From Methylocystis sp. ATCC 49242 (GTDB lineage Bacteria > Pseudomonadota > Alphaproteobacteria > Rhizobiales > Beijerinckiaceae), in contig NZ_KE124774.1 in assembly GCF_000188155.2 (NCBI RefSeq), positions 1,028,736 to 1,092,735 on the forward strand: a stretch of 64,000 nucleotides of DNA, written 5' to 3'. Shown one piece after another: positions 3,571 through 29,583 of the stretch. The notes beneath the pieces were generated by a model. It was not told the origin of the DNA, did no database searches, and saw only the letters and a list, made by a program, of their open reading frames with translations. A program made the translations under genes and the position numbers. Positions within the stretch are counted from its first letter, which is position 1; every line of letters begins with the position of its first letter.

Positions 3571-3731
3571 TAAGAGTTCCAATTGATAAGGCTCTTCCAC
3601 TTTCACGCGCTCTGGAAATCGATCCGGCGCTGTTTCTCACTCTCGTGTTCCGTTGTTGGGGCCTTGAATTCGACGGAATTCAGCTTGTCAACGATCCGGC
3701 TCCGCCTAACGGTAATCCAACGCGGACATAA

Positions 3732-4302
3732 AACTGACTTTCGAACAATTCGAGATGCACTGGTCGATCGTCCATCCAACGAGAGGACGATCACTTTCTG
3801 TTCCGCCAGGCTCCACCGCATCAGTCAAAGAGATTTCGTCGCCCATATCAGGCGCCGCGTGCGCCCTGCGGCGCATCCCATGCGGCGTGGCTTCCTACCC
3901 CACGGGCGCCGCATTCGTGACCACCCCCATCCGTGGCTTTCGTTCCTCCGCCCGGTCGTGGCGGCTTTTCTGACTATGCCGCGCGTCGTGTTGCGAGGGG
4001 TTAGCTGTGAATCGGCGTCCAACACTGACCCCACCTCCTTCTGTTATAAGAGGCTGAAATCAAATAATGTCTCGCCCCTAGCGGGGGGGCAGGATTGAAC
4101 GCCGATCACTTTGTCTGAAAATCGGGAAAAGTCACGCCAGATCAGTCTGTTGGGTCAAGTCTCCAAGGGGTCATTTTTGGACGCCGAGTCACAGCCGATT
4201 TATCATATAGCGAAAAAAGAACGGATCTGTATGGGAACATGCGTGATCCAAAATTACCCTCGACCACCGCTGATTTAAGTCGAGTAGTATCGGGATTTTT
4301 GA
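3732..4302. other. Gene-poor stretch downstream of zorD
   Basis: Several overlapping short frames are present (for example 3755-3973), none with a ribosome site or recognisable sequence. This is the 3' flank of the minus-strand Zorya operon. No clear terminator hairpin with a T-run was found. Confidence 0.5.
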
Positions 4303-7300
4303 TCACTCCAGTGGCACAGAACCATCTGATGCGATTTTTGGACGAGGGATTCCGTCCCGCTCGAAAAGGGCGGATACAGTGGAGATAATTGGATCGTCGG
4401 CGCTTCTGGATTCCTCCGCACTCAATAATTTCTGCAGTTCGGCTACGTCTCCGTCCGTGTCGCCCATCGGCCAAAGGGCCGAGCTGGCTAGCTTGCGCTT
4501 ACGCTGCATGAGGCTTTGCAGCAGACAGTCGAACGAGTTCTCACGGTAGCCCGGATGTATCGCCATCGGTAAGTGGATGCTGACGGGGCGCGTCTGCCCG
4601 AGACGATGAACGCGATCGTTGCACTGTTCCTCGACCGCCGGATTCCACCACCGTGAAAGATGGATCACGTGGGTGGCGGCGGTGAGCGTGAGGCCCACGC
4701 CGGCGGCCTTGGGACCGAGAACGAGAATATCAAACCCTCGGTCTTCTTCCAGATGCTGCTGAAAGCGGTTAACGATCGCCTGCCGCTTCGGGATGGGCGT
4801 GTCACCATTGATGAGATCGATGCGGCTCAAACCGAACTCGGCGCGGGCGAGCTCGATAAATCGGTGTTGCATCTGGCGGTGCTCGATGAAAACCAGCGCG
4901 CGCTCGCCCTTCGCCGCAATGCGCCTAAGAATTTCGAAAGTAGCAGACAGACGGGCCGAGGCGCCGATGTAATCGGCGTCACAGGCCTTCGCATCTAGGC
5001 TTGGATGCACGGACACGGAGCGGATGTGATGCAGCGTTTTCAAGGCTGCTCCCAGGCCGCCCCGTGCGAGCTTGAGCCGCGCGTCATCGTAGGCGGAGGC
5101 CTGACCGGCTGGCATGAGGCGCGGGTGGAGACGCCGGGTTTTCTCCGGCAGGTCCCACGCCACCTGATCTTTCGTGCGGCGAAGCGCGAGCGCTGGACGT
5201 CCGTTCGATGGCTTGAAGACGCGGCCATGCAGCTCCGCCATGTTGCTGCTATCCGGTTCGCCGTAGCGGCTTCTGAATTCTTTGAGACTTCCGAGCAAGC
5301 CGGGCGCGAGCTGCTCCATGACGGCCCAGAGATCGACCGCGCTGTTTTCGATCGGCGTGCCCGTCAAGCCGATGCGAAAGTCAGCGTTCATGAACAAGGC
5401 GGATTGGGAGCGTAGGGCGGCTGGATTCTTGAGCGTTTGAATCTCGTCGAACACGAGGGCGCTGAAACGGATACGGCCGAGCGAATGCTGATAGTTGGTA
5501 AGGGTCGTGTAAGTCGTCAACAGCCAGAAGCGGTGGGCGCGACCTTCTCGCAGGGCTTCTGTCAAGAAACCAAGATCGAGCTTGATTTCGCCGCTGTCGA
5601 TATCGCGACCGGATTTTCCTGTGAGCTTCCGGCTTGAAATGGCGCTGCCATAGAGGCGAATTAGATGGCCGAGGCCCGGCTCCTGGACATGCCGCGCCAC
5701 CTCCTGTTCCCAGTTTTCGAGCAGTGACGTCGGCGCCACAATGAGCACAGGACCACTTTGGGGCGCTTTTTCCTGCGCTAGGTGGGATTTCAGCCAGACC
5801 AGAAACGCAATCGTTTGAAGCGTCTTTCCAAGCCCTTGCTCATCGGCGTTGAGCACGCCGGGAAGGCCCGCTCGCCACGCCGCTACCTGCCAGTCGAAGC
5901 TCTCCAACTGATGGGGCTTCAACGACGTGCGGATCGTATCCGGCAGGACCGCCGGAACGCGCGCCTCACGCGGCTGGAATTTCGTCGACCACTCTATGTC
6001 GTCGAAGTTTTTCTTGCCGTCGAGGACGTGCGGGCCGCTGCGTTCGGCTTCACGGGCTTCGACCTTCGCTTCCGTTCGCGCCTCGAGATGAGCGTCGATT
6101 GTCGCCACCATCTCTGGTTTCGCCGGCAGCTTGAGGTCATCCAAAGGGACAGACTCCTGTCCCTGCTCGATGGCCTCTTCCACATCCTTTCGAAGGCTCT
6201 CCAGCTCGGCGGCGGAACGCGCACCAAGCGCCGCCGCGACCTGTCGAGCGAAATGCTCCGGCAGCCAAGTCGTCCCGCTGCTTTGGAAGTCGCCGAGGTC
6301 CGGCTTTTCAAAGACCTTGACGCCTGTCACCCGCTCGGAGAATTCCTTCGTTTCGATGAACACCGGGCCTGCGGTGTTCTCGATCACTTCCTCTTCCGCT
6401 TCAGGGCTGAGATTCTCGAGGCGGCCATCCTTGCGAAGGGCCGCTTCTATGGCTTCGGTGATGCGGGGGCGAGGGTTTCTGATGAAGGCAGCGCGTTCGG
6501 CCCGAGATGCGCGCTGCATCTCGGCCAAGACATCGAGCGCCGGTAACGCGGAGCGTTCGAGGACGAGGAAACTGCCCGACCCCAACCGATAGGCTGGCGA
6601 CGCGCCGCGCTCACGAACCTTTTTTTGAAAACCCCTCAGCTCCTCGCCACTGAGCTCACTGTCGCTCTCAGAGACTTCTGCGTGTTCTGCGGCATCCGCC
6701 AGTCGACGCCCGGAGAAAGGCAACACTTCGAAGTCGTCGCCCTCTTTGTTCGCCGCTATCGACAGGCGGTCCGCCACCCGCACCTGCAGGCTGGACAGGA
6801 AATCGGTCATCGAGATTCTGGCGGCGTTGCTGCTATCAGCGATATGAACGCCGGGATCGAGCGCTTGCCGGAACCGCGAGAGAGCGCCCCAATGGTCAAT
6901 GTCGCTGCCGCCCGGCCGGAACGTTTCGGCGACCTCGATCGCCTCCATGATCCACAATGGCAAACGCCGTGGCCCGCTCGAGGTTTCGAGGATGGCGCCG
7001 GTCCTGTGCGGCAGCTGCCGCTGTCCGTTCTTGAACCATTCGGCTTTGAGGCGAAAGTTCGGAGACCCCACGAGTCCCTCTGCGTCCGTTTTCAGGGTGA
7101 GGTCGACGAGCGGCGGCAGGCCGAGGATCTGCGCGGTTTCGCCTGGCAGAGCCGCGGCGAGGCGATGGGAAAGGCGGATGTGGTCGGCGACGATCTCCAG
7201 CTCCTCGCCCGCCTCCTCGGCGAGAGCGCGCAGATCCGCAAGCGCAATGATGAGATCGCGGTCGGCGGGCGGCAGATGTTCGAGGTCGCGCTTTTTGGCG

Positions 7301-7386
7301 CGTTTTATCAGGCGCTGCAGAAGGCCGTCGGCTGTCCGCTCGAGGGTGAGGTGGATGGCCTGCTGATCGAAGTGAAAGTCGAACAT
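4303..7386 (-). CDS. zorD: ZorD, SNF2-family helicase/nuclease of type I Zorya
   Basis: A 1027-residue protein. The N-terminal 480 residues are accessory, typical of the ZorD/DISARM-like SNF2 branch. The SF2 helicase core follows: Walker A DEQGLGKT near residue 520, APTSLLENW, the DEAH-box variant FDEIQTLKN near 646, LTGTPIENS, and motif VI DRVHRLGQTRP near 930. Known ZorD proteins act as DNA translocase/nucleases that attack phage DNA after the ZorAB motor senses infection. It is the last gene of zorABCD, nine bases after zorC. I cannot place a separate nuclease motif with certainty. The core looks intact, so it should be active. Confidence 0.9.
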   Translation of the reverse strand: MFDFHFDQQAIHLTLERTADGLLQRLIKRAKKRDLEHLPPADRDLIIALADLRALAEEAGEELEIVADHIRLSHRLAAALPGETAQILGLPPLVDLTLKTDAEGLVGSPNFRLKAEWFKNGQRQLPHRTGAILETSSGPRRLPLWIMEAIEVAETFRPGGSDIDHWGALSRFRQALDPGVHIADSSNAARISMTDFLSSLQVRVADRLSIAANKEGDDFEVLPFSGRRLADAAEHAEVSESDSELSGEELRGFQKKVRERGASPAYRLGSGSFLVLERSALPALDVLAEMQRASRAERAAFIRNPRPRITEAIEAALRKDGRLENLSPEAEEEVIENTAGPVFIETKEFSERVTGVKVFEKPDLGDFQSSGTTWLPEHFARQVAAALGARSAAELESLRKDVEEAIEQGQESVPLDDLKLPAKPEMVATIDAHLEARTEAKVEAREAERSGPHVLDGKKNFDDIEWSTKFQPREARVPAVLPDTIRTSLKPHQLESFDWQVAAWRAGLPGVLNADEQGLGKTLQTIAFLVWLKSHLAQEKAPQSGPVLIVAPTSLLENWEQEVARHVQEPGLGHLIRLYGSAISSRKLTGKSGRDIDSGEIKLDLGFLTEALREGRAHRFWLLTTYTTLTNYQHSLGRIRFSALVFDEIQTLKNPAALRSQSALFMNADFRIGLTGTPIENSAVDLWAVMEQLAPGLLGSLKEFRSRYGEPDSSNMAELHGRVFKPSNGRPALALRRTKDQVAWDLPEKTRRLHPRLMPAGQASAYDDARLKLARGGLGAALKTLHHIRSVSVHPSLDAKACDADYIGASARLSATFEILRRIAAKGERALVFIEHRQMQHRFIELARAEFGLSRIDLINGDTPIPKRQAIVNRFQQHLEEDRGFDILVLGPKAAGVGLTLTAATHVIHLSRWWNPAVEEQCNDRVHRLGQTRPVSIHLPMAIHPGYRENSFDCLLQSLMQRKRKLASSALWPMGDTDGDVAELQKLLSAEESRSADDPIISTVSALFERDGIPRPKIASDGSVPLE

Positions 7387-7395
7387 AGGGGCGTC

Positions 7396-8718
7396 TCAAA
7401 TGTTTTCTTTGACCCAGTCTTGCCAGTTTCCCCAATGACGCTTGGCGGCGTCACTTTTCTTTCGAATATCGTCGCAATCATATCCGCGGTTATGTCCCGT
7501 CTGATAGAGTTTCGGCGTATGAGGGTTCCCGCTTTTGAAAATGTGGACTTTGTAATCATGTGATCCTTCGACCACAATCCTGTTTCCGATTTGCATGATT
7601 AGAAGCGATGTGTCTTTCCGATGCCCTCCAGCGACTTGGCGCCCATATTGTAGTGTGTTGACGCCACCTTTGGCTTTGAGCTGGCTATCCGCGAAATCGG
7701 ATGCTTTTGCGCCAAAGGCGACCCAGGCGGCGTCGATACGTTTTTCCTCGTAAAGCGACAGCCATAATTCACGACGGGGCGCCCACATGTTCGTCTTGTC
7801 CACGACCGACAAAACATCCAGGAAGAAGCGGATGTTTTCCCCCGTCAGCCATCTCATCAACACCGCCAGGTGATCGGGCAGAACGCCAGCCCACGCGCCG
7901 CCGCCACTCACGCGCGGATCGCCATATAGGCCCAATAAGGACTCGGTGATAAATGTCAGCTCGCTTTGAGGCGGGGTCTGCTTCAGCCACGGGCTGAGCA
8001 CCGCCGTTATCGCTTCACCCGCGCCAGACATTCTTGCCCGTTGCCCTCCGGGCTTGAGCCAGTTGAAAAGCTTTTCCAGGCCGGCTCTGCTTTTCAGCTC
8101 GGGCCGCATGATCTCGACAAAGGCCAGATGCGCGTAGTCCATCAGGCCGGGTGCGTGAGGAGTCCTGATGCCGATCGCCTTCAGTTCAGTCCAGCAATCG
8201 ACCATGTTTCTCATTTTCGCGGCGATTGCGTCGGGTGCCCGGACCGGGTCGAGAAGCTCGGGAATGTTTTGGAGAAGCTGATGCCCCTGAGGGCCGATTC
8301 TGGGCCAAGCGCTGATCAGCGCCGACGCCAGGGAGCGCGTGTGTGTTGCGCCGGGTTGGTAAGACCCGAGATATACCGATAGCATCGAGACAAGAAAGGA
8401 ACGGCGCGTCGAGGCATCGATTTCATCGTAGTAGAACTGGCGCAATTTGGCGAGATCGAGCCGCTCCCGTCGTTGCTCGTCGAAGAGCGCCCGGGCGGCA
8501 GAGGTCACGAAAGACATCCACGTGTCGTCCCATGCGTTCGCCTCCAGACGACGGAGCATCTCCTGAACGAGGCGTTCGCGGTCTTCTTCGTTTGGCATGG
8601 CGACGACATCCGGCCAGCGGTTGAGGATGGCGTTCTTCCGCGTTTCTATGCTCTTGAGATCAGGGAGCGTCGGCGCATTGAAGCGCACCAGTTTCTCCAG
8701 GATCGACGCGAGGCTCAT
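7396..8718 (-). CDS. zorC: ZorC, EH-signature protein of type I Zorya
   Basis: A 440-residue soluble, mostly helical protein. The C-terminal quarter holds the EH-signature pattern: LLIMQIGNRIVVEGSH near residue 375, then LYQTGHNRGYD and KRHWGNWQDWV. ZorC is known to work with ZorD downstream of the ZorAB membrane motor in type I systems; DNA binding has been proposed for it. It overlaps zorB by four bases (8715-8718), so translation is probably coupled. ZorC with an SNF2-type ZorD identifies the system as type I; type II would carry ZorE instead. Confidence 0.88.
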   Translation of the reverse strand: MSLASILEKLVRFNAPTLPDLKSIETRKNAILNRWPDVVAMPNEEDRERLVQEMLRRLEANAWDDTWMSFVTSAARALFDEQRRERLDLAKLRQFYYDEIDASTRRSFLVSMLSVYLGSYQPGATHTRSLASALISAWPRIGPQGHQLLQNIPELLDPVRAPDAIAAKMRNMVDCWTELKAIGIRTPHAPGLMDYAHLAFVEIMRPELKSRAGLEKLFNWLKPGGQRARMSGAGEAITAVLSPWLKQTPPQSELTFITESLLGLYGDPRVSGGGAWAGVLPDHLAVLMRWLTGENIRFFLDVLSVVDKTNMWAPRRELWLSLYEEKRIDAAWVAFGAKASDFADSQLKAKGGVNTLQYGRQVAGGHRKDTSLLIMQIGNRIVVEGSHDYKVHIFKSGNPHTPKLYQTGHNRGYDCDDIRKKSDAAKRHWGNWQDWVKENI

Positions 8719-9581
8719 CGTGAGCCCGCCCCAGTGACCCCACTGCGCAAATCGTTTTGGACTTTGCTGATCTCTTCCAGCGTCCCCGGCGTAAACATGA
8801 TGATCCGAAGGTCTATTCGACGGTTGGTGGCCTTCCCTTCTTGGGTGGCGTTATCCGCCACAGGGCGCATTCTGCCGTATCCGGCCACGGACAGGACCGG
8901 TTGTGCACGATCATTGCGAAAGTCGACCAGAGCCGGCTCGTGCTTCGTCATCGCGAAAAAGGTCTCGTTAGCACGATTGGTGGATAACGTGATGTTGCTA
9001 TTGTCCTGTCCGTCGGAATCCGTATGCCCTTCTACCAATACAGCTTCGATGACCGCGCCCGCGGCATTACAGCGGCTGTTCCAGGAAGAACGGGGTCCGA
9101 GCGTATAACAGGGCAGCACTTCGCCGAGGCGGGTGGCGATGCTTTCCACGATGCGCCGCTTGTCGGGCCGGAGCTCGCTCGACCCCGTCTTGAAGAGGCC
9201 GTCACCCTTGAACCTCAGAGCGTCCATCTCCTCGCTGATCACGACTTGAAGGTCAGGAAAGTCGGCTTTCAGCTTCGACTGAAGGTCTTTGAGAATACGC
9301 TCTCGCTGGTTCGCCACGGCGGCGAGATACGTCTCGACCGGGCGGTTCGCGAGCCGTTTCAATTGTTCCCTTAGCTCTCGCACTTCTTTTTCAAGCTTGT
9401 CTCGCTCACGAACGATGCTCTCGTATTCCTTGCGCGACACTTTGTCGGGGTCGCGAAACTGGGAGGCAAAGAAGGCAAGGAGGATCATAACGATGAAGAG
9501 GAAACTTACCGTCATGTCCGTCATGGACACGAAAACGGACTCTTCTTCGTCCTCATGATGGCGCCGCGGCCCCCCCCTCAA
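8715..9581 (-). CDS. zorB: ZorB, MotB-like stator subunit of Zorya
   Basis: A 288-residue inner-membrane protein with a short cytoplasmic N-terminus rich in H, E and D. One membrane helix begins at SMTDMTVSFLFIVMILLAF; D22 sits where MotB/ZorB proteins carry the ion-conducting aspartate. A coiled-coil periplasmic linker follows (about 50-95), and an OmpA/MotB peptidoglycan-binding domain ends with EGHTDSDGQ, LSTNRANE and NRRIDLRI. With ZorA it forms an ion-driven motor anchored to peptidoglycan. It overlaps zorA and zorC by four bases each, a tight operon. Confidence 0.92.
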   Translation of the reverse strand: MRGGPRRHHEDEEESVFVSMTDMTVSFLFIVMILLAFFASQFRDPDKVSRKEYESIVRERDKLEKEVRELREQLKRLANRPVETYLAAVANQRERILKDLQSKLKADFPDLQVVISEEMDALRFKGDGLFKTGSSELRPDKRRIVESIATRLGEVLPCYTLGPRSSWNSRCNAAGAVIEAVLVEGHTDSDGQDNSNITLSTNRANETFFAMTKHEPALVDFRNDRAQPVLSVAGYGRMRPVADNATQEGKATNRRIDLRIIMFTPGTLEEISKVQNDLRSGVTGAGSR

Positions 9582-11647
9582 AACCTTCTCCTGCGCTCAG
9601 GCGTGAACTGTTCGGCTTGCTCGACGATGGTTCGCAAAGTGTCCAGGGCTGGAGCCAATTCTTCCTGCATTCTGCGAACATGGCCATGAAGGCTATCCAC
9701 AGTGACCGCGACCTGGCCTGTATATTTTTCGAAGGCTTCCCCGAGTTTCTCGTCAAGGTCATCGAGACGATCGCCCTGTTCTCTTATCCGGGCTTCTTGC
9801 GCCTTCATTCGATCCAGCATGTCGCTCAGGCCCTTGAGCGAGGTCTCGATTGCTCTCGCGTGACCCCCTAGCATTTCCTGCGCCGCCGCCAGAGTCTGCG
9901 CCGCGCTTTGTGCGGTCGCCTCAGAGGAGCGCACGACCGTATTGGCCGCATGGGCGGTGCTCTCTTTCAAATGCGTCATCGTGGCCTCAAGGCGCTCGTT
10001 TGCGGAGCTGATCGGGGCGACGGCGGCGGCGAGGTCTTGCGACGCCGACTTGAAGCTGCTCGCAGCCCGCTCGCTGGCTTCGGCCCCGACACGAACGCCA
10101 TCAGAGAGGCGTCGCATGCCGGTCGCGCCTTCGGAAAGGCTGTCAACCATGGTGCCGAGCTGCTGCGCGATCCGGTCGAGCGGCGCAAGAAGCTCCTGTC
10201 CGGCTTTCTCGGCGAGCTGTTCCGTGCGCTCCGAGATTTCCTTGGTCGTTCGGTCGACCGCCTGGAGCACTGCGACGCCGGCAGATCCGATCGCCCCGGC
10301 GGCGTTGGCGCCCTCGGCCGCGATTTGACCGGCCACGGCAGCGCGTCCCTCTCTGGATGCCTCCTCGATTTCCTTGCGGAAACCCTCGGCTGCCTGTCGC
10401 ATTTCCGCCGCAGCCGCGCTTAGCGCGCGAGCGCCCTCGCCAGTGTTGTCTCGAATGCCCTCCAACGTCTGGTTCATGACGGAAAGCAACTGCTCCGCGC
10501 CCTGCGTAAAGGCGCCGGAAGCGGTCTGAGCGGTGGCGCCCATGCCGTTGCGGAGATCCTCCACCGCTTGGGTAAGGCGGGTTACGGCCGCGTCTATCTC
10601 TGTGCCGACGCGTCCTGAGCTCTGATCCATCCTCTCCGACAGCGCCGCGATGCGGTCTCCCGCCTTGACGAGGCTTTCGCTGGCCGTGGCCAAAGCGTGC
10701 CCGACGTCGTCGGAGAAGCGCTCCGAGAGGCTTTTCACCATCTCGTCCATTCCATCAGCGCCGGCCTGGCCGACCTGCTGCATGAGCGGCGCCATCACTG
10801 ACGTGATGGAGGTCGATATCGCGGCCGGCAGCTCCTCCCGCAGAGGGCGACCCAACTCCGCCACGAGTTCAAGGCCAATCATGCGAAAGTGCTCGCGCTG
10901 TTCGCGCGTCGCCGCCAACTGCTCGACGGCTAGATATTCGAGGCTGATGAAGGTCAGGCGCGTCTCAATCGTGGCGCAGAGCTGATGGATCTCCTTCTCT
11001 GTGCGCGACATGCCGCGCCGAAGCACAATCGTAAACACGATCGAGCAGAGCAGTCCCGTAAGCGACATGATGAACTTGGCGGACGCGATGGTCAGGAGGA
11101 TCTGGAGCGAGTCCTGGACCTTGTCCCCGCGGAAGTCCATGGAGCTCAGGGCGGAAATGAGGCCTAGAAACGTAAGGAAAAGACCGACGCTGACGAAGAT
11201 GCCGGGAACGATGCGCCAGCTGCCGGCGCCAAATCGCAAATCGTCCGGGTTGAAGAAAACAGCCGGGCGGACCGAGTTTCGTAGCGTAATGGATTCATTC
11301 TCGTAATGCGGGACGAGAGTCTCCCTATATTCGCGCCACGCCGTCGCCAGATGCGCGCGCGCCTCTCCCTGCGCCTCGCTTTCGATTTTGTGGTCGAGAC
11401 CGCTGATGGCCTCCGCAAAGGCGGCGTGGTCAGGGGTCTCATCGATCAATCCGCGCAGCCAACGTATGGCATTTCGCCTCGAGGCCGTGGCGCGATGGAA
11501 TACAATAACAGCCGCGCCGAGTGCGCCGAGGAGCAAAAGAGTTACAAGACCCGGGGCCGCCGGGAATTTCAAGGTAGACGCGAAGAACAGCACCAAATCG
11601 CGGACGTAAATACCAACCAGCGAAAAAAGGCCAACCACGGTTCCCAT
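9578..11647 (-). CDS. zorA: ZorA, MotA-like motor subunit with long coiled-coil tail
   Basis: A start at 11647 (MGTVVGLFSLVGIYVRDL) gives 689 residues; the longer frame lacks a ribosome site. Membrane helices lie at about residues 8-25, 30-50, 128-150 (IVPGIFVSVGLFLTFLGL) and 167-190. A cytoplasmic tail of more than 400 residues follows, with alanine/glutamate-rich repeats, apolipoprotein-like, as in known ZorA. In characterised Zorya this tail forms a long intracellular shaft linking envelope sensing to ZorC/ZorD. It is the first gene of the zor operon, with its own sigma-70-like promoter proposed upstream. About 175 bases separate it from the co-oriented lipoprotein gene. Confidence 0.92.
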   Translation of the reverse strand: MGTVVGLFSLVGIYVRDLVLFFASTLKFPAAPGLVTLLLLGALGAAVIVFHRATASRRNAIRWLRGLIDETPDHAAFAEAISGLDHKIESEAQGEARAHLATAWREYRETLVPHYENESITLRNSVRPAVFFNPDDLRFGAGSWRIVPGIFVSVGLFLTFLGLISALSSMDFRGDKVQDSLQILLTIASAKFIMSLTGLLCSIVFTIVLRRGMSRTEKEIHQLCATIETRLTFISLEYLAVEQLAATREQREHFRMIGLELVAELGRPLREELPAAISTSITSVMAPLMQQVGQAGADGMDEMVKSLSERFSDDVGHALATASESLVKAGDRIAALSERMDQSSGRVGTEIDAAVTRLTQAVEDLRNGMGATAQTASGAFTQGAEQLLSVMNQTLEGIRDNTGEGARALSAAAAEMRQAAEGFRKEIEEASREGRAAVAGQIAAEGANAAGAIGSAGVAVLQAVDRTTKEISERTEQLAEKAGQELLAPLDRIAQQLGTMVDSLSEGATGMRRLSDGVRVGAEASERAASSFKSASQDLAAAVAPISSANERLEATMTHLKESTAHAANTVVRSSEATAQSAAQTLAAAQEMLGGHARAIETSLKGLSDMLDRMKAQEARIREQGDRLDDLDEKLGEAFEKYTGQVAVTVDSLHGHVRRMQEELAPALDTLRTIVEQAEQFTPERRRRF

Positions 11648-11821: not shown

Positions 11822-12247
11822 TCAGCGGCTTCGTCGCTTTTGCGCGACCGAAGGCGCGCTGCAGGAACCATCAGGCATCATCAGAATGTCGGCTTGCGGC
11901 GCGTATTGGTTCATTGCGCCGGTGGCGGCGTCGACGCCCAACCCGACAACCCCGCCAACCACGATATTGCCCGCCGTCATGCCGTCCATGCTGGACGCAA
12001 GCATGCCGTTTCCTTCGCTATAGCATTCCTTGCTGCAGCGAACCGACACGGCGCTGGCGCCCTTGGCGAGCGTGACGACACCCGGCGTCGTGACCATCTG
12101 TCTGCCGACCGAAGGAGAGGTCAAGGTGCACGTTGCGCCCGGCGCGCCGGGCGTGTTGATGGCGACGGCCTGCGTCGTCCCGCGCGTCATCGTCGCACAA
12201 CCAGCCAAGCCAATGAGAGCGGCGCAGGTCATCAGATATTTCAGCAT
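11822..12247 (-). CDS. Small envelope lipoprotein with glycine zipper (copy 1)
   Basis: A start at 12247 after AAAGGAAA gives 141 residues. The signal peptide MLKYLMTCAALIGLAGCATM ends in a lipobox LAGC, so the mature protein is a lipoprotein. The middle is beta-rich with TPGAPGATCTL and SVRCSKECY. A glycine-zipper helix NIVVGGVVGLGVDAATGA follows near residue 100. The family is common in proteobacteria and has no firm function. A closely similar copy is at 30733-31155, also beside a CARF-like sigma-54 activator. It lies between a VIT-like gene and zorA, all on the minus strand, so one transcript is possible. Confidence 0.8.
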   Translation of the reverse strand: MLKYLMTCAALIGLAGCATMTRGTTQAVAINTPGAPGATCTLTSPSVGRQMVTTPGVVTLAKGASAVSVRCSKECYSEGNGMLASSMDGMTAGNIVVGGVVGLGVDAATGAMNQYAPQADILMMPDGSCSAPSVAQKRRSR

Positions 12248-12327
12248 CGTCAAGTTTCCTTTTCTTTTTGTCCAAATCGTATCGGCCGATCACCCGGAAG
12301 CGCGGCTTCTAGTCGTCAAGGGCCGCC

Positions 12328-12975
12328 TCAAAGGTTCAAAAACCCTGTCTGAGCGTCGGGAAAAATCAGCTCGAGCGGTTCATCGGCGGCGACGATGACC
12401 GGCGCGTCCCCGACGGGGCGGCCGTGAAGCAGGGCGAGACCGCTCTGCGGCGAGACGAGGAGAACCGCGATCGCCCGCTCTTCCGGGATTGGGACGGTCT
12501 TCAGCGTTCCCATCAGAAAGACATCCGCGAAAGCCATCGGAATTGGCAGACGCGGCGACTCGCCCGAGAATGAAAGCTGCGCGAGGATCCTGGCCTCTAT
12601 CTGCACTTCGTTCGCCAGCGGAATGGAGCGCAGCGTTACGACATGCGCGCCGCGCTGCAGCGGCATGTATGAAACGCGCATGGGCTTGCGGGCTTTTTCG
12701 GGGGTTTCAAGCGCCAGAACGAAGTCATTCTTGCCGATGCGAGCGCTTGGGCCCCACATGATGGCGCCGGGAGGAGACAGAAGGGTCAGCACTACGTTGA
12801 TGGGCGCAGCCTCGAAACTGCGGAAAAAGCGCGTGAGGGTGATGCTCGCAAAGCCATCGCGCACCCATGAAATCTCGATGCGTCGCGCAATCGCCAGTTC
12901 GATGGCTGATCCATCAGCGCAAAACCCGACCACTGCGTCTCGAAGAGTGGGGTCCGAATGATGAACGCGGGTCAT
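12328..12975 (-). CDS. Protein resembling a VIT (vault/inter-alpha-trypsin) domain
   Basis: Start 12975 (MTRVHHSDPTLRD) follows AGAGGG at reasonable spacing and gives 215 residues; a longer in-frame start at 13044 is possible. Residues about 25-150 show the VIT-like pattern: IEISWVRDGFASITLTRFFR, then FEAAPINVVLTLLSPPGA, ARIGKNDFVLALETPEKARK, and later TLRSIPLANEVQIEARI followed by a proline-rich strand. VIT domains usually precede a vWA domain; no vWA is present here, so it may be a stand-alone or shortened form. This family call is my reading of the pattern. A strong sigma-54 motif lies upstream at 13171-13184 on the same strand, divergent from the activator at 13343. Confidence 0.5.
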   Translation of the reverse strand: MTRVHHSDPTLRDAVVGFCADGSAIELAIARRIEISWVRDGFASITLTRFFRSFEAAPINVVLTLLSPPGAIMWGPSARIGKNDFVLALETPEKARKPMRVSYMPLQRGAHVVTLRSIPLANEVQIEARILAQLSFSGESPRLPIPMAFADVFLMGTLKTVPIPEERAIAVLLVSPQSGLALLHGRPVGDAPVIVAADEPLELIFPDAQTGFLNL

Positions 12976-13170
12976 TTGGTGAAGTGCCCTCTGAAAGAAA
13001 AAAGCGCGCGCCGAAACGGACGGCGTTTCCGCGTGAGATGGCATCAAGGGATGACGGCGCGCCGGGATCGGGCGCGCCGCGGGGATGATCGGACGGTCCG
13101 GCGCCCCCTCAGGCGTGGGGCCTGTCCGGGATAGGAGGGGGATGGTGAAACGGCGACATGTCCTGCCGGG

Positions 13171-13184
13171 GCAATGTGCGTGCC
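13171..13184 (-). promoter_or_regulatory. Sigma-54 (-24/-12) promoter facing the VIT-like gene
   Basis: On the minus strand the motif reads GGCACGCACATTGC. It matches the consensus GGCACG-N4-TTGC at every fixed position, with GG and GC at the required spacing. The predicted start is near 13159, about 185 bases before ATG 12975. The divergent gene 160 bases away encodes a sigma-54 activator, the usual arrangement. Confidence 0.75.
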
Positions 13185-13342
13185 GGCGGGCGAAACGGCG
13201 TCGCGTTTGGCGCCGCCGGGTTAGCAAGTCGCTGATCTATAAGCGAGATACGATGCCACAGGCGGCGCGCCGGCTCCCGGCCGACGCTGCGCCTATGATA
13301 ACGTTTCTTGTGAAACCACAAATGATCTTATAAGCCAGCGGC

Positions 13343-14881
13343 GTGCGTATGCTCGTCTCATGGCTCGGAACGGCCGATCTCAAAGCTCCAGAGGCGGTTG
13401 ACAGGGCGGATATCGGTCCCGTCGCCTCGACGCTCGCAGCGCGCACCTTCGACCGCGTTCTGCTGCTCGCGGATCAGAACCCCAAAAGCGTGCGGCGCTA
13501 TGAGAGCTGGCTGCGCACAAATCTCGCGAGCAAAAAGGGGCTCGCATTGTCCGTCGCGCGCGTGGACATCACCAACCCGACAAATTTCGAGCAGATCTAT
13601 TCCGCCGTCACGCAATGCCTTGATCACGAACTGAGGGCGCTTGAGGAAAGGCCTGCGCTTTCCTTCAATCTAAGCTCCGGCACGCCGGCGATGGCCGCGA
13701 CATGGGTCGTGCTGGGCAAGACCAAATATCGGGCCGAGCTGCTGCAATCGTCCCGCCAGACAGGCGTCGAGACCGCTTCGGTTCCTTTCGATATTTCGCT
13801 CTCGCCCGAGTTCGTCACGGACGTTCTGCGCGGCCCCGATCGGCAACTCGAAAAGTTGAGCGGCGGCGCGTCGGATGCAGGCTCGAAATTCGGCGACATC
13901 ATCTATCGCGGCCCGGCGATGCGGCGGCTGATCGAGAGGGCGTCCAAAGCCGCGCCGCGCTCCGTGCCCGTCCTCATCGAGGGAGAGTCGGGAACCGGCA
14001 AGGAACTGCTTGCGCGCGCCATTCATGCGGCCAGCCCGCGCCGTCGAAAGCCGCTGGAGGTGGTGAATTGCGGAGCCATCCCCCCGGAGCTGGCGGAGTC
14101 GGCGCTCTTCGGCCACGTGAAGGGCGCCTTCACGGGCGCCGTGCGCGACCAAGTGGGGCATTTCGAGGCCGCGCATGGCGGCGCTCTGTTCCTCGACGAA
14201 GTGGGCGAATTACCGCTGCTCGCACAGGTCAAATTGCTGCGGGCGATACAGGAGGGCGAAATCCGCCGCGTGGGCGACGATAGGACGCTTCAGGTCGATG
14301 TCCGCATCATCGCGGCCACCAATCGCCAGCTTGCGGCTGAAGTCGCCGCCGGGCGCTTTCGGGAAGATCTCTTCTACCGTCTCGCCGTTCTGATCCTGCG
14401 CGCGCCGCCCTTGCGGGAGCGCGAGGGCGATTTGGAGCCGCTGATCGACGGACGGCTCGCGCGCATCAATGCACAGAGCGCGAAGGAGCCGGGATTTTCG
14501 CCGCGCCGGATCTCCCCGGAGGCGAAGGCGATGCTCATGCGCCACGGCTGGCCGGGCAATGTGCGCGAGCTGGAGAACACCTTGCGCCGCGCGGCTGTCT
14601 GGTGCGACGGCGAGATCATGGAAGCCGCTGACATCGCCGACGCCCTCTTGCCGCGAGCTACGCCCGCCGCCGACGCCGTGCTTGGGCGGCCGCTGGAAGC
14701 AGGCGTCGATCTGCCGGAGCTGCTGGCGGAAGTGGCGCGGCATTATCTCTCCCGCGCCATGTCGGCCTGCAATGGCAACAAGTCTCGCGCCGCCGAGCTG
14801 GTCGGTCTCGCCAGCTATCAGACGCTCACCAACTGGCTCGAAAAATACGACGTCACGGAGCCCCGCTCCCGCGAGGCTTGA
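13343..14881 (+). CDS. Sigma-54-dependent activator with CARF-like sensor domain (copy 1)
   Basis: A 512-residue protein. The N-terminal 165 residues form a Rossmann-like CARF-type domain: MRMLVSWLGTADL, FDRVLLLADQ, then the ligand-loop-like [20 protein letters not shown]. The sigma-54 AAA+ domain follows with Walker A GESGTGKE near residue 217, GAFTGA near 263, LFLDEVGEL and the R-finger region. A Fis-type HTH ([20 protein letters not shown]) ends the protein. It has RtcR-like architecture, but no rtcBA genes are nearby. By family knowledge it should activate a sigma-54 promoter when the sensor binds a ligand, perhaps a cyclic oligonucleotide or modified nucleotide. The GTG start aligns with the ATG of the second copy (27155-28672). 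Confidence 0.88.
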   Translation: MRMLVSWLGTADLKAPEAVDRADIGPVASTLAARTFDRVLLLADQNPKSVRRYESWLRTNLASKKGLALSVARVDITNPTNFEQIYSAVTQCLDHELRALEERPALSFNLSSGTPAMAATWVVLGKTKYRAELLQSSRQTGVETASVPFDISLSPEFVTDVLRGPDRQLEKLSGGASDAGSKFGDIIYRGPAMRRLIERASKAAPRSVPVLIEGESGTGKELLARAIHAASPRRRKPLEVVNCGAIPPELAESALFGHVKGAFTGAVRDQVGHFEAAHGGALFLDEVGELPLLAQVKLLRAIQEGEIRRVGDDRTLQVDVRIIAATNRQLAAEVAAGRFREDLFYRLAVLILRAPPLREREGDLEPLIDGRLARINAQSAKEPGFSPRRISPEAKAMLMRHGWPGNVRELENTLRRAAVWCDGEIMEAADIADALLPRATPAADAVLGRPLEAGVDLPELLAEVARHYLSRAMSACNGNKSRAAELVGLASYQTLTNWLEKYDVTEPRSREA

Positions 14882-14903: not shown

Positions 14904-15791
14904 CTAAGGGCAGCGAGGGGCTTTTCGTAAGTTTACGGAGTAAGCGTAGGGATCGGAGCGCTCGATCAAGACCTCGTCTCCCGGCTCCGCGCCACTGCGC
15001 GCGAAAAAGTCCTTTATCTGCCCGCGTGCGTTGCGGAAGAAATAATGAGCTGACCGGCCTTCGCGCGCGTGAATGTCGGGACCGGCGATGTCGGTGATCA
15101 CGGCAGGACCATTCGCGAAAGTTACTTTCATCATCTGCCGCGCCAACTGGCTTTTGTCCGATCCGCCAATGCACTCTTCCGGGAAGAAGGGCAGCACCGT
15201 CCGAAGGTAAAAATGATTGTTCGTGATGTTGCCTGACGAGATCGGGATGATGCAGCGATTGCCCTCGATCCTGCCGCTGATCTTCGCGCGGGCGCCCTGC
15301 CCGGCCATCGTGGCGGCGGCTTCGGCGCGGCTGGGCGCGGGCGTTCGCGGCGCTTGTGAGGGTGCTTCGATCGCAGAACCGAGGTCGGTTTGAGAAGCTG
15401 CATCGCCGACGCAGCCTGCTTCCACTTTCGCGGATACGGCGGGGGCGAGCGTCACCCAGATCACGGCGCCCTGAGGGTGTTCATAGGGAACAGGCGTAGC
15501 GAGCGGGCGGGCGTTTCTAAGCACCCAGGGATGACGCCAGCCATCGGCGAAGGCCGTCGCCTGCCGGTGCGGTGGAATGCGGTGGCGATCTTCGGCGGCG
15601 GCGTAGGCTTCGGGCGTGTCGAGCGGCGGCAACGTGTCGATCACCTCGGCAGTTCCCACCACCTGCCCGCTCCCCTTGCGGATGAGCGCGATTCGGCCGC
15701 GCAGGCGACAGGCGGTCTTGCGCATTTCCCATGTTTTTCGTCCGGTGAGAACTTCGGTGATCCAGGGTTCGTCGATGATCAGCGCCTTCAT
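14904..15791 (-). CDS. ASCH-domain protein with C-terminal B3-like barrel
   Basis: A start at 15791 after AAGGAAAC gives 295 residues. Residues 1-110 form an ASCH/PUA-like domain (MKALIIDEPWITEVLTGRKT, WEMRKTACRLRGRIALI, VVGTAEVIDTLP), a fold that binds RNA or modified bases. A low-complexity linker (about 125-165) leads to a barrel (NITNNHFYLRTVLPFFP, HYFFRNARGQIKDFF, EPGDEVLIERSDPYAYSV) resembling B3/EcoRII-N effector domains that bind DNA. It is convergent with the sigma-54 activator and downstream of the GmrSD/HsdS genes on the same strand. The combination suggests a reader of modified nucleic acid, possibly a specificity partner of the GmrSD-like nuclease; this is inference. Confidence 0.7.
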   Translation of the reverse strand: MKALIIDEPWITEVLTGRKTWEMRKTACRLRGRIALIRKGSGQVVGTAEVIDTLPPLDTPEAYAAAEDRHRIPPHRQATAFADGWRHPWVLRNARPLATPVPYEHPQGAVIWVTLAPAVSAKVEAGCVGDAASQTDLGSAIEAPSQAPRTPAPSRAEAAATMAGQGARAKISGRIEGNRCIIPISSGNITNNHFYLRTVLPFFPEECIGGSDKSQLARQMMKVTFANGPAVITDIAGPDIHAREGRSAHYFFRNARGQIKDFFARSGAEPGDEVLIERSDPYAYSVNLRKAPRCP

Positions 15792-15927
15792 GCTGTTTCC
15801 TTCTTCCTGCGCGTTCTCTTCGCCGCCCGCCGCGCCGCCTCGATGCCTTCCAGCAGTTTTGACGCTGGCTATCAGACCATGAGCAACCGGTTCCAAAGAC
15901 AGGCCTGCTCGATGACCGAAGGCGCCG

Positions 15928-17733
15928 TCAGCTACCGAAAAACCTGACCGACTCTGTGTCGATCTTCTTGCCCATTGCCGCACCGATGATCGAGCACAAG
16001 GCCTTCCCGCGCGCCTCGAAAAAAGCCTTGAAATCGTCGCCGCGCAGCGTCTGGGGGTCGATCCGATGACTGGCGATCAATGCGTCCATGTCGCAATCAG
16101 CAAGCCCGACCTGCCGATGATTTTGAAGCGCGCGCAGGTAATGCGACGGCGCGTTTCCGCCAATCATACGGTTGGCTTTATAGGAGATTGGCGTCTTGTT
16201 CACGATGCTGTCGTAGACGGCCGGGCGAATGCCCCTTTCCTCGCACCAAGCCTTCGGGAAGATGTGGTGGATGTCCAACGCGACTTCCTCGGCTTCCAGA
16301 TCCCGAATGCTCGCCTTCCAGAAAAAGTCTTTCGACCCTTCGCGTTGGATGAGGACATTCAGGCCCTTGTAGGCGGCGGACAAGCGCGAGCGCAGGCTGT
16401 TCAGGCGGCCAGGCTGGAAGTTCGCCTCGGTCACGGTGCGGGGCTCGTCGCCGCCGTCGATCCAACGCAGGATTTCCTCGATGTCGTTTGCGATACGGGT
16501 TTCCACCGCGCCGCCATAGAGTTCGCCGAAGACGCCGCACCAAAACCACCGGCTGAGCTTTTCGTAGATTCTGGGCTCCAACCAGCGCTCTTGCAGATGC
16601 GCCATGACGGCGGCCAGCGGCACGACCTGCGTGCGATAGGGCAAGTCGCGCGTCGTGAGCACGAGTTCCTTGCGCAGGAAGCGCGCGGCGGTCTTGAAGC
16701 CGGCCTCGACCTTGTCCGCCCATTTGCGGTAGGTCGGCAAACTCATGTTCAGGATCGTCGCGCGTTTGGCGCTGACGGCCGAGACGAGCTTGCCTGTCTT
16801 GCCCGCCACGAGATCGGCAAGGCGGTTTTCGTGGGTGTGCAGCAGCGCCACGGCCTGCAAGAAGTCGGTCGGTTCGATCGAGGCGAGATTGTCGTCCTGG
16901 CAAATTCGCTGGCTCCGGCCTTCGACGCCGCGCAGGGCGCTGCCGAACCAGTCATCGCGCAGATTGAAATTGTCGGCGGCGAAGGACGCCGTGACGAGTT
17001 CGAAGACCGACAGCGCCACGCCGCCCGTATTGACCTTTTCGAAGACGAGGCAGACCGCCTCCTTGCTCGTCTCCTTGGCGAGCTTGATCGCGGGCAGCTG
17101 ATAGGCGCGGAACCTGTCGGAGACCTTTTCCCGGAAATCCATGAAGCGGAAGAATTTGTCCCGGTCGATCTCGCTCAGCGCCCGTTCCCATTCGCGCGTG
17201 TCGAGAAGCTCGTTGCAGGGGAAGCAGAAGGCCCGGCATTCCTTCTCGCGGCTGGACAGGTCGAGGTCGATCTTCCGGTCGAAATCGCTCTTGACCTTCT
17301 TGTCGGCGGGCACGGCGAAAAATGCGTCTTCGAGCGTATCGTCGGAGAGGGCCTTGTCGATATCGACATAATAAAAAAGCTCGACCTGTTTTCCCTTGGC
17401 GTCGAAGGTTTTCACTGGCCCGGGTTGTTTTAGAACCTGTGTCAGCGTCGTCAGGCGTTGTTGGCCGTCGAGGATCAGAAGCTCGGGCCAGGGGATCGCG
17501 CCGCGAAAGGTCACGCCTTCCACCGGCCGCGTCTGGAAGCGGGCTTCGCCGCCGGTTTCCAGCAACATAACCGCGCCGACGGGAAAGGTGCGCGCGATGG
17601 AGACCAGCAGCGAGCGGACGTGCTCATCGTCCCAGACCCATCCGCGCTGGAAATCCGGCAATTGAACCTTGCCCGCGGTAATGTCTTCGAGGATTTGCGG
17701 CAAAGCGATTTTGGTGGAATCAAAAGTGCTCAT
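15928..17733 (-). CDS. GmrSD-type DUF262/HNH restriction protein
   Basis: A 601-residue fusion. The N-terminal DUF262 (GmrS, ParB-like) domain shows VQLPDFQRGWVWDDEHV near residue 25 and LLILDGQQRLTTLTQ near 88. The C-terminal DUF1524-type HNH nuclease domain shows EVALDIHHIFPKAWCEERG near 490 and an N-rich NKTPISYKANRMIGG segment. Related proteins are type IV enzymes that cut DNA with glucosylated cytosines, and BrxU-like proteins. The start codon overlaps the hsdS stop by four bases, so it is translationally coupled to the type I R-M operon. This would add modified-phage targeting to ordinary restriction. Confidence 0.85.
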   Translation of the reverse strand: MSTFDSTKIALPQILEDITAGKVQLPDFQRGWVWDDEHVRSLLVSIARTFPVGAVMLLETGGEARFQTRPVEGVTFRGAIPWPELLILDGQQRLTTLTQVLKQPGPVKTFDAKGKQVELFYYVDIDKALSDDTLEDAFFAVPADKKVKSDFDRKIDLDLSSREKECRAFCFPCNELLDTREWERALSEIDRDKFFRFMDFREKVSDRFRAYQLPAIKLAKETSKEAVCLVFEKVNTGGVALSVFELVTASFAADNFNLRDDWFGSALRGVEGRSQRICQDDNLASIEPTDFLQAVALLHTHENRLADLVAGKTGKLVSAVSAKRATILNMSLPTYRKWADKVEAGFKTAARFLRKELVLTTRDLPYRTQVVPLAAVMAHLQERWLEPRIYEKLSRWFWCGVFGELYGGAVETRIANDIEEILRWIDGGDEPRTVTEANFQPGRLNSLRSRLSAAYKGLNVLIQREGSKDFFWKASIRDLEAEEVALDIHHIFPKAWCEERGIRPAVYDSIVNKTPISYKANRMIGGNAPSHYLRALQNHRQVGLADCDMDALIASHRIDPQTLRGDDFKAFFEARGKALCSIIGAAMGKKIDTESVRFFGS

Positions 17734-19178
17734 GGCGTCTTTTCTTTGGTCTTGCGGGTTCTCTTGGCTTTGGGCGCGGCGGCGCGCGCCGACTGGATGC
17801 GCGCCAGAAGCTCCGACGCCGGTTCGTCATCGGGGTCCTGCGGCACGAGCTCGCCGCGAAAAGCTTTGGACAATAGCGCCTGATCCAGCCGGTCCAGCAG
17901 TTTCGACGCCGACGCCGCCTCGGCGGCGATGCGGTCGATTTTGGCGAAGGCGGATTCGATGCGATGGAAAATTTCGCACATCTCGTCTGGACTAGCCAAA
18001 GGCAATGGCAAAGCCCTTATCTTTGACATGCTTATTGACGCCAAATTTGTGGTCTGCTTACCTTGGTCCAAGAAATAATCCTGACCGAACGCGTTTGCAT
18101 AAATGGAAATGAATTTCGGTTCAATTTTTCCTGAGCGCAGTCGTAATCTAAAAACATGATTTTGATGGATGCAGCCCGCAATTTGGCCTTCCCAGACCCA
18201 TCCTCGCCCCAATTTGTCGCGGTCGCCGCCTTCATTCATGAGAATATCGCCGGCTTTAAGTTCAAGGCTTCTCGCCTCGTCCGGAGTAACTAAGACCGTC
18301 TTAATTTGATCAAGTGTCAGCCACCCTCTCTGAACATTAGCAACACGAAGATATGGCTTCTCAACCAATTCCACGTCCTGGGATCGTTTTTTGCCGAGCG
18401 CCAATCCGCCCTTCACTTCGCAAATCTCGCCAGCGAGAACCCAAGCCCACCCTCGAGGTAACGGCACTGAACTGGAGATCGCATCTACTCCGATTTCGTC
18501 AAGCAGAGCAGAGACGCTCTTTTCGCTGTTATGCAGTCTCCAATCAGCTGTTAATTCCCCACTGAACGCCTTCGCCAAAATCGCCTGCTTAGCGCGGGCG
18601 ACGAGGGCGGGGATGCGGTCGAGATCGGCGCGGGCGCGTTTGCTGCTCGCGTCCAGCGCATTAAGTTTGACGACGATCCGGCGTTGTTCAGCGAGAGGGG
18701 GCGTGGGGATGTTCAACGCCTTCAATCGCCCGCCAGAAATCCTTTGCCGAGTAGTTCCGCTGGTTTCGGTTAATATAGAGGCTCGCACGTCTGGGCTATT
18801 CATTATGAAAGCAAGCCAAGCCGGGATGGAAAGTGCACTGTCTGACCGCCAAAGCATAACGTCAACAACAGTAACAGCCGACTGTCCAAGTCCGGGGAAG
18901 ACACAGGCTCGCCCGATCGGATCTGGCATTCGCGCTATCAGGACGTCGCCTTTTTCGAGGAAGGAGCACCGAAGCTCCAAGGCTTTGTCGCTTGTAAGGA
19001 AACGTTCTGATCTGTCGCGAAACTCATTTACGCCGACATCAGCCAGCTGGATTAGCCGCACTTCGCCATTTGGATCCTGATCCTTGGACTCGACCCAATC
19101 ACCGTCAGTAACGAGACCCTCAGGTCCGGCCAACTTCTCGAGAGGAATTTCAATCCACCCCTGGGGCAAATCGCTCAT
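17730..19178 (-). CDS. hsdS: Type I restriction-modification specificity subunit HsdS
   Basis: A 482-residue protein with two target-recognition domains (about 1-165 and 230-400). They are separated by paired conserved helices, with the repeat theme PPLAEQRRIVVKLNALDA / RARADLDRIPALVARAKQAI and, at the end, RIESAFAKIDRIAAEAA / KLLDRLDQALLSKAFRGELV. It sets the DNA target of the HsdM2S methylase and HsdR2M2S nuclease. It overlaps hsdM and the GmrSD gene by four bases at each end. The first recognition half has lower GC than the flanking helices, as expected for swapped recognition domains. Confidence 0.92.
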   Translation of the reverse strand: MSDLPQGWIEIPLEKLAGPEGLVTDGDWVESKDQDPNGEVRLIQLADVGVNEFRDRSERFLTSDKALELRCSFLEKGDVLIARMPDPIGRACVFPGLGQSAVTVVDVMLWRSDSALSIPAWLAFIMNSPDVRASILTETSGTTRQRISGGRLKALNIPTPPLAEQRRIVVKLNALDASSKRARADLDRIPALVARAKQAILAKAFSGELTADWRLHNSEKSVSALLDEIGVDAISSSVPLPRGWAWVLAGEICEVKGGLALGKKRSQDVELVEKPYLRVANVQRGWLTLDQIKTVLVTPDEARSLELKAGDILMNEGGDRDKLGRGWVWEGQIAGCIHQNHVFRLRLRSGKIEPKFISIYANAFGQDYFLDQGKQTTNLASISMSKIRALPLPLASPDEMCEIFHRIESAFAKIDRIAAEAASASKLLDRLDQALLSKAFRGELVPQDPDDEPASELLARIQSARAAAPKAKRTRKTKEKTP

Positions 19179-20638
19179 TCGGCCGCCTCCGCATCAACAG
19201 CGGAGCTATCCTCCAACTCTTCCGCCAGCGTCTCAATCTCGCCCAACGCACTCTTGAGATGCCCCAGAATGGCGGCGATCAATTCTTCCGGTTCGCTCAG
19301 CGAATCCTCGGCGTCCGCTGACGTATCCCGCAGCCAGCTAATGTCCAGATTGTCGCCCCTCGCCGCGATCTCCTCGCGCGTGAAACGGCGAAAGCGGCCC
19401 TCCTCACCTTCGTCGTTGCGTTTGGCGCGGCCATTCGGATCGGCGCCAAAGGCGCGCTCGAAATCGGCGAAATGTTCCGGCGTCAAAGGGCTGGTCTTGC
19501 CGAAGGCCGGCATATTGGCGCGCAGATCGTAAATCCAGACCTTTTTCGTCTGGCCGCTGTCGGCCTCGCCCTTGCTGAAGAAGATGACATTGGTCTTGAC
19601 GCCCTGCGCGTAAAAAATGCCAGTCGGCAGGCGCAGGATGGTGTGCAAGTTGCAGTAATCCATCAGCATGCGGCGCAATTCGCGCCCGCGCCCGTCCTCG
19701 AAGAGCACATTATCCGGCACAACGACGGCCGCGCGCCCGCCGGGCTTCAGCGTGCGGATGCAATGTTCCACGAAAGGAAGCTGATAGGAGGAGACCGTGG
19801 CAGTGACGGTGATATCGTCGCGCGAGGGCTTGCCGCCCGCGGGGCCGAAAGGCGGATTGGTGAGGATCACATCGGCCTTGTTCATCGCAGCGCCGGCGGG
19901 CGAGAGCGTGTCGCCAAGCTCTATGTGCCAACTGTCGACGCCATGCAGAAAGAGGTTCATCAGCAGCAGGCGATAGACACCCTCGACATTCTCCATGCCC
20001 TGCAGCGCATGCTTGAGCTGGAATTCCTGCGCCTTTGGCGCAAGGTCGAAAAAGTCGTCGGTCTTCGCCCGCATGTAACGATTGGCGGCGATGAGAAAAC
20101 CGCCGGTGCCGGCGGCGGGGTCCTGGATGATTTCGCCTGGCTGCGGCGCGAGCAGGCGCACCAGCAATTCGATCAGCACGCGCGGGGTAAAATACTGGCC
20201 GGCGCCGCGCTTGGTCTCTTCGGCGTTCTTCTGCAACAACCCTTCATAGAGATCGCCGAAGGAGTCGCGCTCCTCCGTGAACCAGTGGAGGTCGTCGATA
20301 GCCCCGATGAGCTTGTCCAGGTTGACCGGCTCGCGAATGAAGGTCGCGGCGTTGGCGAATATGGCCTGGACGGCGCGGTCGCGCTTCTGCTGCGGATCGC
20401 CGAGATCGGCGAGGATTTTACGATAGAGTGCGAGACGCCTGACGCCTTCTTCCGCGATCAGATCGCCCCAGCGCGCGCCTTGCGGAATCTTGCCTTCCTC
20501 ACGCTTCTGCTCGGCCATCATCTTGAGGAACAGCAGATAGGTCAGCTCGGTGACATATTGCTGGTAGGTGACGCCGTCCTTGCGCAGCACGGCGCAGAGC
20601 CGCCAAAGCTTGTTGACGAGGTCGGAAGAGGGATTCAT
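19175..20638 (-). CDS. hsdM: Type I R-M methyltransferase subunit HsdM
   Basis: A 487-residue N6-adenine methyltransferase. It has a helical HsdM N-terminal domain (about 1-130), SAM-binding IIQDPAAGTGGFLIAAN near residue 176, and the catalytic TNPPFGPAGGK near 261. A C-terminal helical tail ends in an acidic stretch. It methylates the host sites recognised by HsdS and joins HsdR to form the nuclease. It lies 20 bases after hsdR and overlaps hsdS by four bases. Motifs are intact. Confidence 0.95.
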   Translation of the reverse strand: MNPSSDLVNKLWRLCAVLRKDGVTYQQYVTELTYLLFLKMMAEQKREEGKIPQGARWGDLIAEEGVRRLALYRKILADLGDPQQKRDRAVQAIFANAATFIREPVNLDKLIGAIDDLHWFTEERDSFGDLYEGLLQKNAEETKRGAGQYFTPRVLIELLVRLLAPQPGEIIQDPAAGTGGFLIAANRYMRAKTDDFFDLAPKAQEFQLKHALQGMENVEGVYRLLLMNLFLHGVDSWHIELGDTLSPAGAAMNKADVILTNPPFGPAGGKPSRDDITVTATVSSYQLPFVEHCIRTLKPGGRAAVVVPDNVLFEDGRGRELRRMLMDYCNLHTILRLPTGIFYAQGVKTNVIFFSKGEADSGQTKKVWIYDLRANMPAFGKTSPLTPEHFADFERAFGADPNGRAKRNDEGEEGRFRRFTREEIAARGDNLDISWLRDTSADAEDSLSEPEELIAAILGHLKSALGEIETLAEELEDSSAVDAEAAE

Positions 20639-20658
20639 GAACGCTCCGAATCGGCCGG

Positions 20659-26943: not shown

Positions 26944-26955
26944 GATTACCTCCAG

Positions 26956-27154
26956 AGCAACAAAATCGACACGTCAATTCCCTGCACGTTCGTAACGGCG
27001 GACGACTCTTGTGAAAGAGCATCACAGCTGGAGCTCCGACAAGAAACTGGCGAGACAGAGGCGTTTCTAACGCCGGCGAGGCCGCTGATCGCAGCCGTTT
27101 GCACCCACTATGTTCCTTTTTTTGGCGAGCGTTATCCGCACGATTGACGACCAA
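26956..27154. other. Short gap between IS66 and the second sigma-54 activator
   Basis: No gene or clear terminator seen. It continues the sequence interrupted by IS66. Confidence 0.4.
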
Positions 27155-28672: not shown

Positions 28673-28716
28673 ATGATCAATATATAAAATTTTTTATGCA
28701 TGGACAAGAAATCTAG

Positions 28717-29579: not shown

Positions 29580-29583
29580 CTAG

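Follow-up and report, generated by a model that had tools for sequence, protein, structure and literature searches.

RtcR, the CARF-domain sigma-54 activator of the rtcBA RNA repair genes, carries its CARF, AAA+ and helix-turn-helix (HTH) domains in that order. According to the covered portions of PMC9650030, RtcR is not activated in vitro by oligoadenylates and is constitutively active when its CARF domain is removed. RtcR-like CARF-NtrC-AAA-HTH proteins unlinked to Rtc are often neighbours of restriction-modification (R-M) systems, and activation of downstream genes via sigma-54 is their probable role (PMC4012209, covered in part), and RtcR homologues stand at the head of R-M/CoCoNuT superoperons, with RNA bearing a 2',3'-cyclic phosphate as their proposed signal (PMC11090510, likewise covered in part). 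The covered portions of these two papers contain no sigma-54 promoter mapping, and nowhere in the portions of the literature covered were the two geometries described below found to have been mapped. The literature searched held no paper joining CARF, sigma54 and type I restriction-modification, and none pairing Zorya with RtcR or with sigma54. Here we analysed 64,000 nucleotides of Methylocystis sp. ATCC 49242 (contig NZ_KE124774.1, positions 1,028,736 to 1,092,735; the window). In it, a CARF-domain sigma-54 activator (activator 1) diverges from a gene labelled VIT-like and a lipoprotein gene, beyond which lies a type I Zorya system, zorABCD (Table 1). Activator 1 and its promoter probably form a ligand-gated sigma-54 switch for this small and probably envelope-related VIT-like/lipoprotein unit, with Zorya most likely a bystander.

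A CARF-domain activator facing a sigma-54 promoter

The first-pass annotation had read activator 1 as a sigma-54 activator with a CARF-type N-terminal domain, and this was confirmed. Pfam profile searches matched PF00158 (E 2.1e-67) and HTH_8 PF02954 (E 5.4e-6). The top PADLOC model was RtcR_PspF2--CARF_AAA_HTH (E 1.6e-187), and PDLC01995 aligned residues 1-504 with positions 1-480 of its 481, placing the protein in the RtcR_PspF2 class. The AAA+ domain, a GAFTGA loop in the sequence and the Fis-type HTH identify a sigma-54 enhancer-binding protein. A structure search with the N-terminus returned a CARF fold over residues 1-175, and this Rossmann-like fold, together with a conserved GT-containing motif, assigns the domain to the CARF superfamily. 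Activator 1 shares domain order and sigma-54 control with RtcR but is not an RtcR equivalog: the NCBIfam RtcR model NF038308 aligned to residues 37-494 and scored 337.6 bits, where its cut-off is 650, Pfam PF06956 is absent from the genome, and the target is not rtcBA, no Pfam match to which was found among the genes divergent from activator 1. The CARF fold is also shared with Csa3 and Csm6, from which activator 1 differs in its output, a sigma-54 AAA+ domain, and in its genome, where no Cas10 palm domain was matched. A type III CRISPR system of the genome was therefore considered an unlikely source of cyclic oligoadenylate as the activator's signal.

The -24/-12 site between activator 1 and the VIT-like gene had the highest sigma-54 score in the window (15.2 of a maximum of 19.0 bits), and the site of a second activator (activator 2) ranked second. 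The exact pattern GGCACGNNNATTGC occurred three times in the whole 4.73 Mb genome and was absent from the backwards control. Two occurrences belong to activators 1 and 2; the third precedes an open reading frame (ORF) that we take to encode the ammonium transporter AmtB. AmtB is a classical sigma-54 target, and rpoN is present in the genome. The reported site was thereby confirmed; its earlier description as near-perfect goes slightly too far, its first position being C instead of T and a C following the GC.

The same arrangement was found in the congener G940, where the genes opposite the activator are a VIT-like homologue (35% identical), a 94-aa gene and the lipoprotein gene. The alignment of the two intergenic regions keeps a TATAAGA block, TTT-N-TG-N-T-N2-CACAAGA and CCGGCA-N4-CATTGC; a large part of the remaining sequence has drifted. 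No Zorya or hsd match was present in 34 kb of the G940 locus, and the ZorA1 model was unmatched in the whole of that genome. Since G940 has the switch and the unit without Zorya, Zorya appears to be a bystander. The CARF domain occurs in 2 of 39 genomes of the genus (this one and G940), in 1 of 149 of the family (a sample without G940) and in 2 of 385 of the class. For these counts the CARF part of PDLC01995 was used alone, because the full profile matched 296 of 297 genomes of the order through the shared AAA+ domain.

The divergent unit and its paralogous locus

For the VIT-like gene, the likely start is ATG 12975, giving the 215 aa of record P0001, and not the upstream ORF start at 13227. 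The gene is present and co-oriented with its neighbours as first described, and its label is weak: the protein had no Pfam match at E<=10, and one of its five database relatives (P0084) matched PF08487 VIT at E 0.26, below the cut-off. A structure model built without relatives was unusable (predicted local distance difference test score 31). The VIT label is thus unproven. Activator record P0005 and VIT-like record P0081, both with a longest contig of 7824 bases, may share a contig. The lipoprotein and zorABCD all lie on the minus strand, bearing out their reported co-orientation. Thirteen of 61 relatives, a count that takes in this genome, have the lipoprotein, and phage records gave no match to it. 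In three congener regions (L143-L145) it stands without the activator, Zorya or a nearby sigma-54 motif. One of them (L143, from G835), at 3125-7951, has the downstream chromosomal genes of G940 with a homologous small gene and the lipoprotein, and an HsdR homologue occupies the side where G940 has the activator and the VIT-like gene. The two regions are a natural presence/absence pair.

Activator 2 and the lipoprotein at 30733-31155, 73% identical to that of locus 1, were absent from the first-pass annotation. When the IS5-like element is subtracted, the distance from activator 2 to its sigma-54 site is about 168 bp by arithmetic, against 158 at locus 1. Recent duplication of the activators was rejected, because in a tree of 71 of 79 relatives, chosen by length, activator 1 fell into a clade of five that leaves out activator 2 (support 99/93). 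At the DNA level the two activators form an inverted repeat with 73% complementarity.

The inverted activator and lipoprotein pairs frame the type I R-M operon, with arms 73-77% complementary. At the end of this operon, the ASCH-domain gene (14904-15983) has a long C-terminal extension and adjoins the GmrSD-like gene (15928-17733). The gap that separates activator 2 from hsdR holds an element at 25507-26956 whose ends are inverted and which contains a transposase ORF (25614-26897); GCGATTACCTCCAG is repeated on both sides of the element (by eye). In the window scan the motif matches at 29038 and 60644 were identical, which makes another copy of the IS5-like element probable near 60.3-61.1 kb (about 60330-61140). 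An Rfam scan of 7000-33000 at gathering scores matched no family.

Table 1. Features of the window around the two activators
Feature	Position	Strand	Remarks
zorD	4303-7386	-	SNF2-type helicase, as expected of ZorD
zorC	7396-8718	-	
zorB	8715-9581	-	
zorA	9578-11647	-	ORF reaches 11770; the ZorA1 profile match points to ATG 11647 as start; a neighbour that probably does not belong to the unit
Lipoprotein	11822-12253	-	Lipobox-like LIGLAGC (by eye); paralogue of 30733-31155
VIT-like gene (orphan)	12328-12975	-	215 aa; signal peptide not seen by eye; 6 database members, itself included
Sigma-54 -24/-12 promoter	13170-13185	-	CGGCACGCACATTGCC (CGGCACGCACATTGC at 13171-13185); lies 158 bp ahead of the ORF of activator 1 and points away from it
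Putative enhancer (upstream activating sequence)	13304-13322	-	TTTGTGGTTTCACAAGAAA; TTGTG-N4-CACAA dyad; conserved in G940; related half-site enriched upstream of relatives
Activator 1	13343-14881	+	512 aa; CARF (residues 1-175), sigma-54 AAA+, Fis-type HTH; RtcR_PspF2 class
Type I R-M operon	14904-24039	-	hsdR (20659-24039), hsdM, hsdS, GmrSD-like gene, ASCH gene; between the activators
Activator 2	27155-28672	-	Uninterrupted ORF; 75% identical to activator 1
IS5-like insertion	28716-29580	+	Separates activator 2 from its sigma-54 site; transposase ORF on -; family named by eye
Sigma-54 site of locus 2	29708-29723	+	AGGCACGATCATTGCG
Likely targets at locus 2	30030-31155	+	Small ORF 30030-30443 and lipoprotein 30733-31155

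Promoter positions and neighbours in the activator family

The survey covered 88 activator loci (the best 80 of 328 from genome_contigs, seven plasmid loci and one further locus), leaving out metagenome contigs, the home of most of the nearest activator relatives (proteins 60-80% identical). Promoters were scored at 78 loci with a threshold of 12.5 bits or more; at the other ten, no plus-strand ORF contained the two motifs on which the script relied. A sigma-54 motif lay within -30 to +60 of the activator stop codon in 44 of the 72 activators with a complete 3' flank. On the opposite strand, a motif stood 40-220 bp upstream of the activator in 21/78, and five of the 78 had both geometries. Control ORFs of at least 300 aa from the same loci gave 1/560 for the stop-codon type and 7/576 for the divergent type, and the mirrored motif gave 1 and 0 of 78. 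Both activators of the window are of the divergent type. Moreover, TACAAGA was found within 150 bp upstream of the activator start in 23/78, with 25 occurrences against 0.8 expected.

R-M genes were the dominant neighbours, with co-oriented hsd genes within 3.5 kb of the activator in 50/78 loci and HsdR and HsdM homologues each in 52/88. In this respect, and in class as far as it is described in the covered portions of PMC4012209 and PMC11090510, our activators resemble the R-M/CoCoNuT-linked ones; they differ in their conserved promoter, which is directed at a divergent VIT-like/lipoprotein unit. ZorA/B/C, the VIT-like gene and, outside the genus, the lipoprotein were each found in 0/88 loci; some loci are as short as 2-5 kb, so that absences in them weigh little. 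Ten divergent proteins from nine upstream-site loci were searched with Pfam and PADLOC; ARPP-1 was found in three and a DUF2130-like match in three (two below the cut-off), indicating that divergent targets vary. At L064, L080 and L108 the divergent gene encodes an ARPP-1 domain (PF20208; E 1e-100, 4e-102 and 3e-96). On the Rhodoferax and Polaromonas plasmids L115 and L117, the activator is followed by a VWA-PP2C-kinase-AAA operon in place of R-M genes.

The proposed switch and competing explanations

The arrangement suggests the following course. Activator 1 would bind the putative enhancer, a CACAAGA-type palindrome that closely precedes the activator gene. At rest the CARF domain would keep the AAA+ domain off. 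By analogy with RtcR, the ligand may be RNA ends with a 2',3'-cyclic phosphate, cyclic oligoadenylate being less likely. Ligand binding would allow the AAA+ ring to assemble; through its GAFTGA loops the ring would contact sigma-54 RNA polymerase at the divergent promoter, some 120-135 bp off, and ATP hydrolysis would then open the promoter. The predicted transcript comprises the VIT-like gene and the lipoprotein, presumably an envelope module. Zorya, about 175 bp beyond the lipoprotein, would most likely be expressed separately and stand there because defence genes cluster, with sigma-54 read-through into it possible.

Several observations weigh against this reading. The sigma-54 matrix was derived from a consensus sequence, and the G940 site CGGCATCATCATTGCG (by eye) falls under the threshold of 11.5 used there. 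Neither promoter geometry was found in 18/78 activators (five of these 18 with an incomplete 3' flank), and the activators are phylogenetically non-independent. At locus 2, the insertion element now splits activator 2 from its promoter, and the gene between promoter and lipoprotein is not the same as at locus 1. The lipoprotein also occurs in the congeners G815, G829 and G835, all without the activator, and is absent from the activator loci outside the genus; instead of being a dedicated target, it may have been resident before the switch adopted it. On the minus strand, a terminator-like hairpin (13025-13009) follows the promoter and precedes the VIT-like start; the scanned stretch had three sites of this kind, against 2.4 expected by chance. 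Finally, no minus-strand terminator-like site separates the lipoprotein from zorA, so read-through into Zorya is possible.

This last feature, with the co-orientation of the genes and the short gap (51 bp to the first start codon of the zorA ORF), would allow the sigma-54 transcript to continue through zorABCD and the CARF signal to arm the envelope module and Zorya together, which we consider unlikely. The Zorya genes matched PADLOC ZorA1, B1 and C1 at E 2e-288, 2.4e-121 and 4.3e-173. Against such read-through, a sigma-70-like TTGCAA-N18-TATAAC element at 11732-11703, just before zorA (by eye; unlisted under the tool's stricter rule), suggests that zorA has its own promoter. The unit is kept without Zorya in G940, and a like unit exists at locus 2, where ZorA1 is unmatched; the genome has a single ZorA1 match. 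Of 397 genomes of the order, 17, among them the one studied here, have ZorA1. Regions from 15 of the other 16 were compared, two of them short (a ZorA fragment in G915 was left out), and the activator, the VIT-like gene and the lipoprotein were each found in 0/15. The activator-Zorya linkage was also absent from five viral contigs. Control of the Zorya operon, checked from the activator side, from the Zorya side and in G940, is thus not supported: no linkage of zor genes with the activator was found in the other loci compared, which is part of what the first-pass annotation had named as evidence against its own proposal, and the lipoprotein is linked to the activator only within the genus. In one of the 15 Zorya loci, from the same family, hsdRMS lies directly before zorA without an activator, indicating that Zorya can adjoin restriction genes in its own right. 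The first-pass annotation had proposed a signal that switches on an envelope module and possibly Zorya. The sensor, the promoter and the divergent lipoprotein unit were upheld by the structure search, the genome-wide motif count, the paralogous locus and the congener footprint; control of Zorya was not. Its statement that no Zorya locus with such control was described holds for Zorya in the literature searched, but the covered portions of PMC4012209 and PMC11090510 do describe CARF-sigma-54 activators beside other defence operons.

It is rather improbable that the activators belong to the intervening type I R-M system, with hsdRMS as the true target in trans and the lipoprotein units as older neighbours. 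The frequency of nearby co-oriented hsd genes favours this possibility; in the closest genome_contigs relative (L032, Hyphomicrobium) activator and hsdSMR converge, as they do for activator 1 here, and activator 2 is co-oriented upstream of hsdR across a 3.1-kb gap that holds a transposase gene. On the other hand, the best minus-strand sigma-54 match in that gap scored 11.1, under the family threshold, the G940 locus lacks an hsd match in its 34 kb, and the conserved promoters point at the lipoprotein units. A fortuitous site and layout, with an activator that is silent or regulates only itself, would fit the hairpin after the promoter but is very improbable, because site and dyad are kept in G940 though much between them is not, and equal geometry is found far more often in relatives than in control ORFs.

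The regulator class is thus a known one and its setting here is new. Of the first-pass proposal, the half that concerns the lipoprotein unit is strengthened, and the Zorya half is unsupported. More broadly, and doubtfully, CARF-sigma-54 activators might be a mobile, general inducible defence switch with two fixed promoter geometries, at the activator stop codon or divergent from its start, which here would have captured the VIT-like/lipoprotein unit of the envelope and, by reading through where no terminator intervenes, would arm Zorya as well; an envelope defence would then be raised on demand when infection damages RNA. In our judgement, few signals are known to switch on defence operons, and a CARF sensor coupled to a sigma-54 promoter would be a tight, ATP-driven switch. 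Because the promoter positions point to the likely target of most family members examined, their ligand and regulon become testable, and the VIT-like/lipoprotein unit would be a type of target beyond the restriction genes usually reported.
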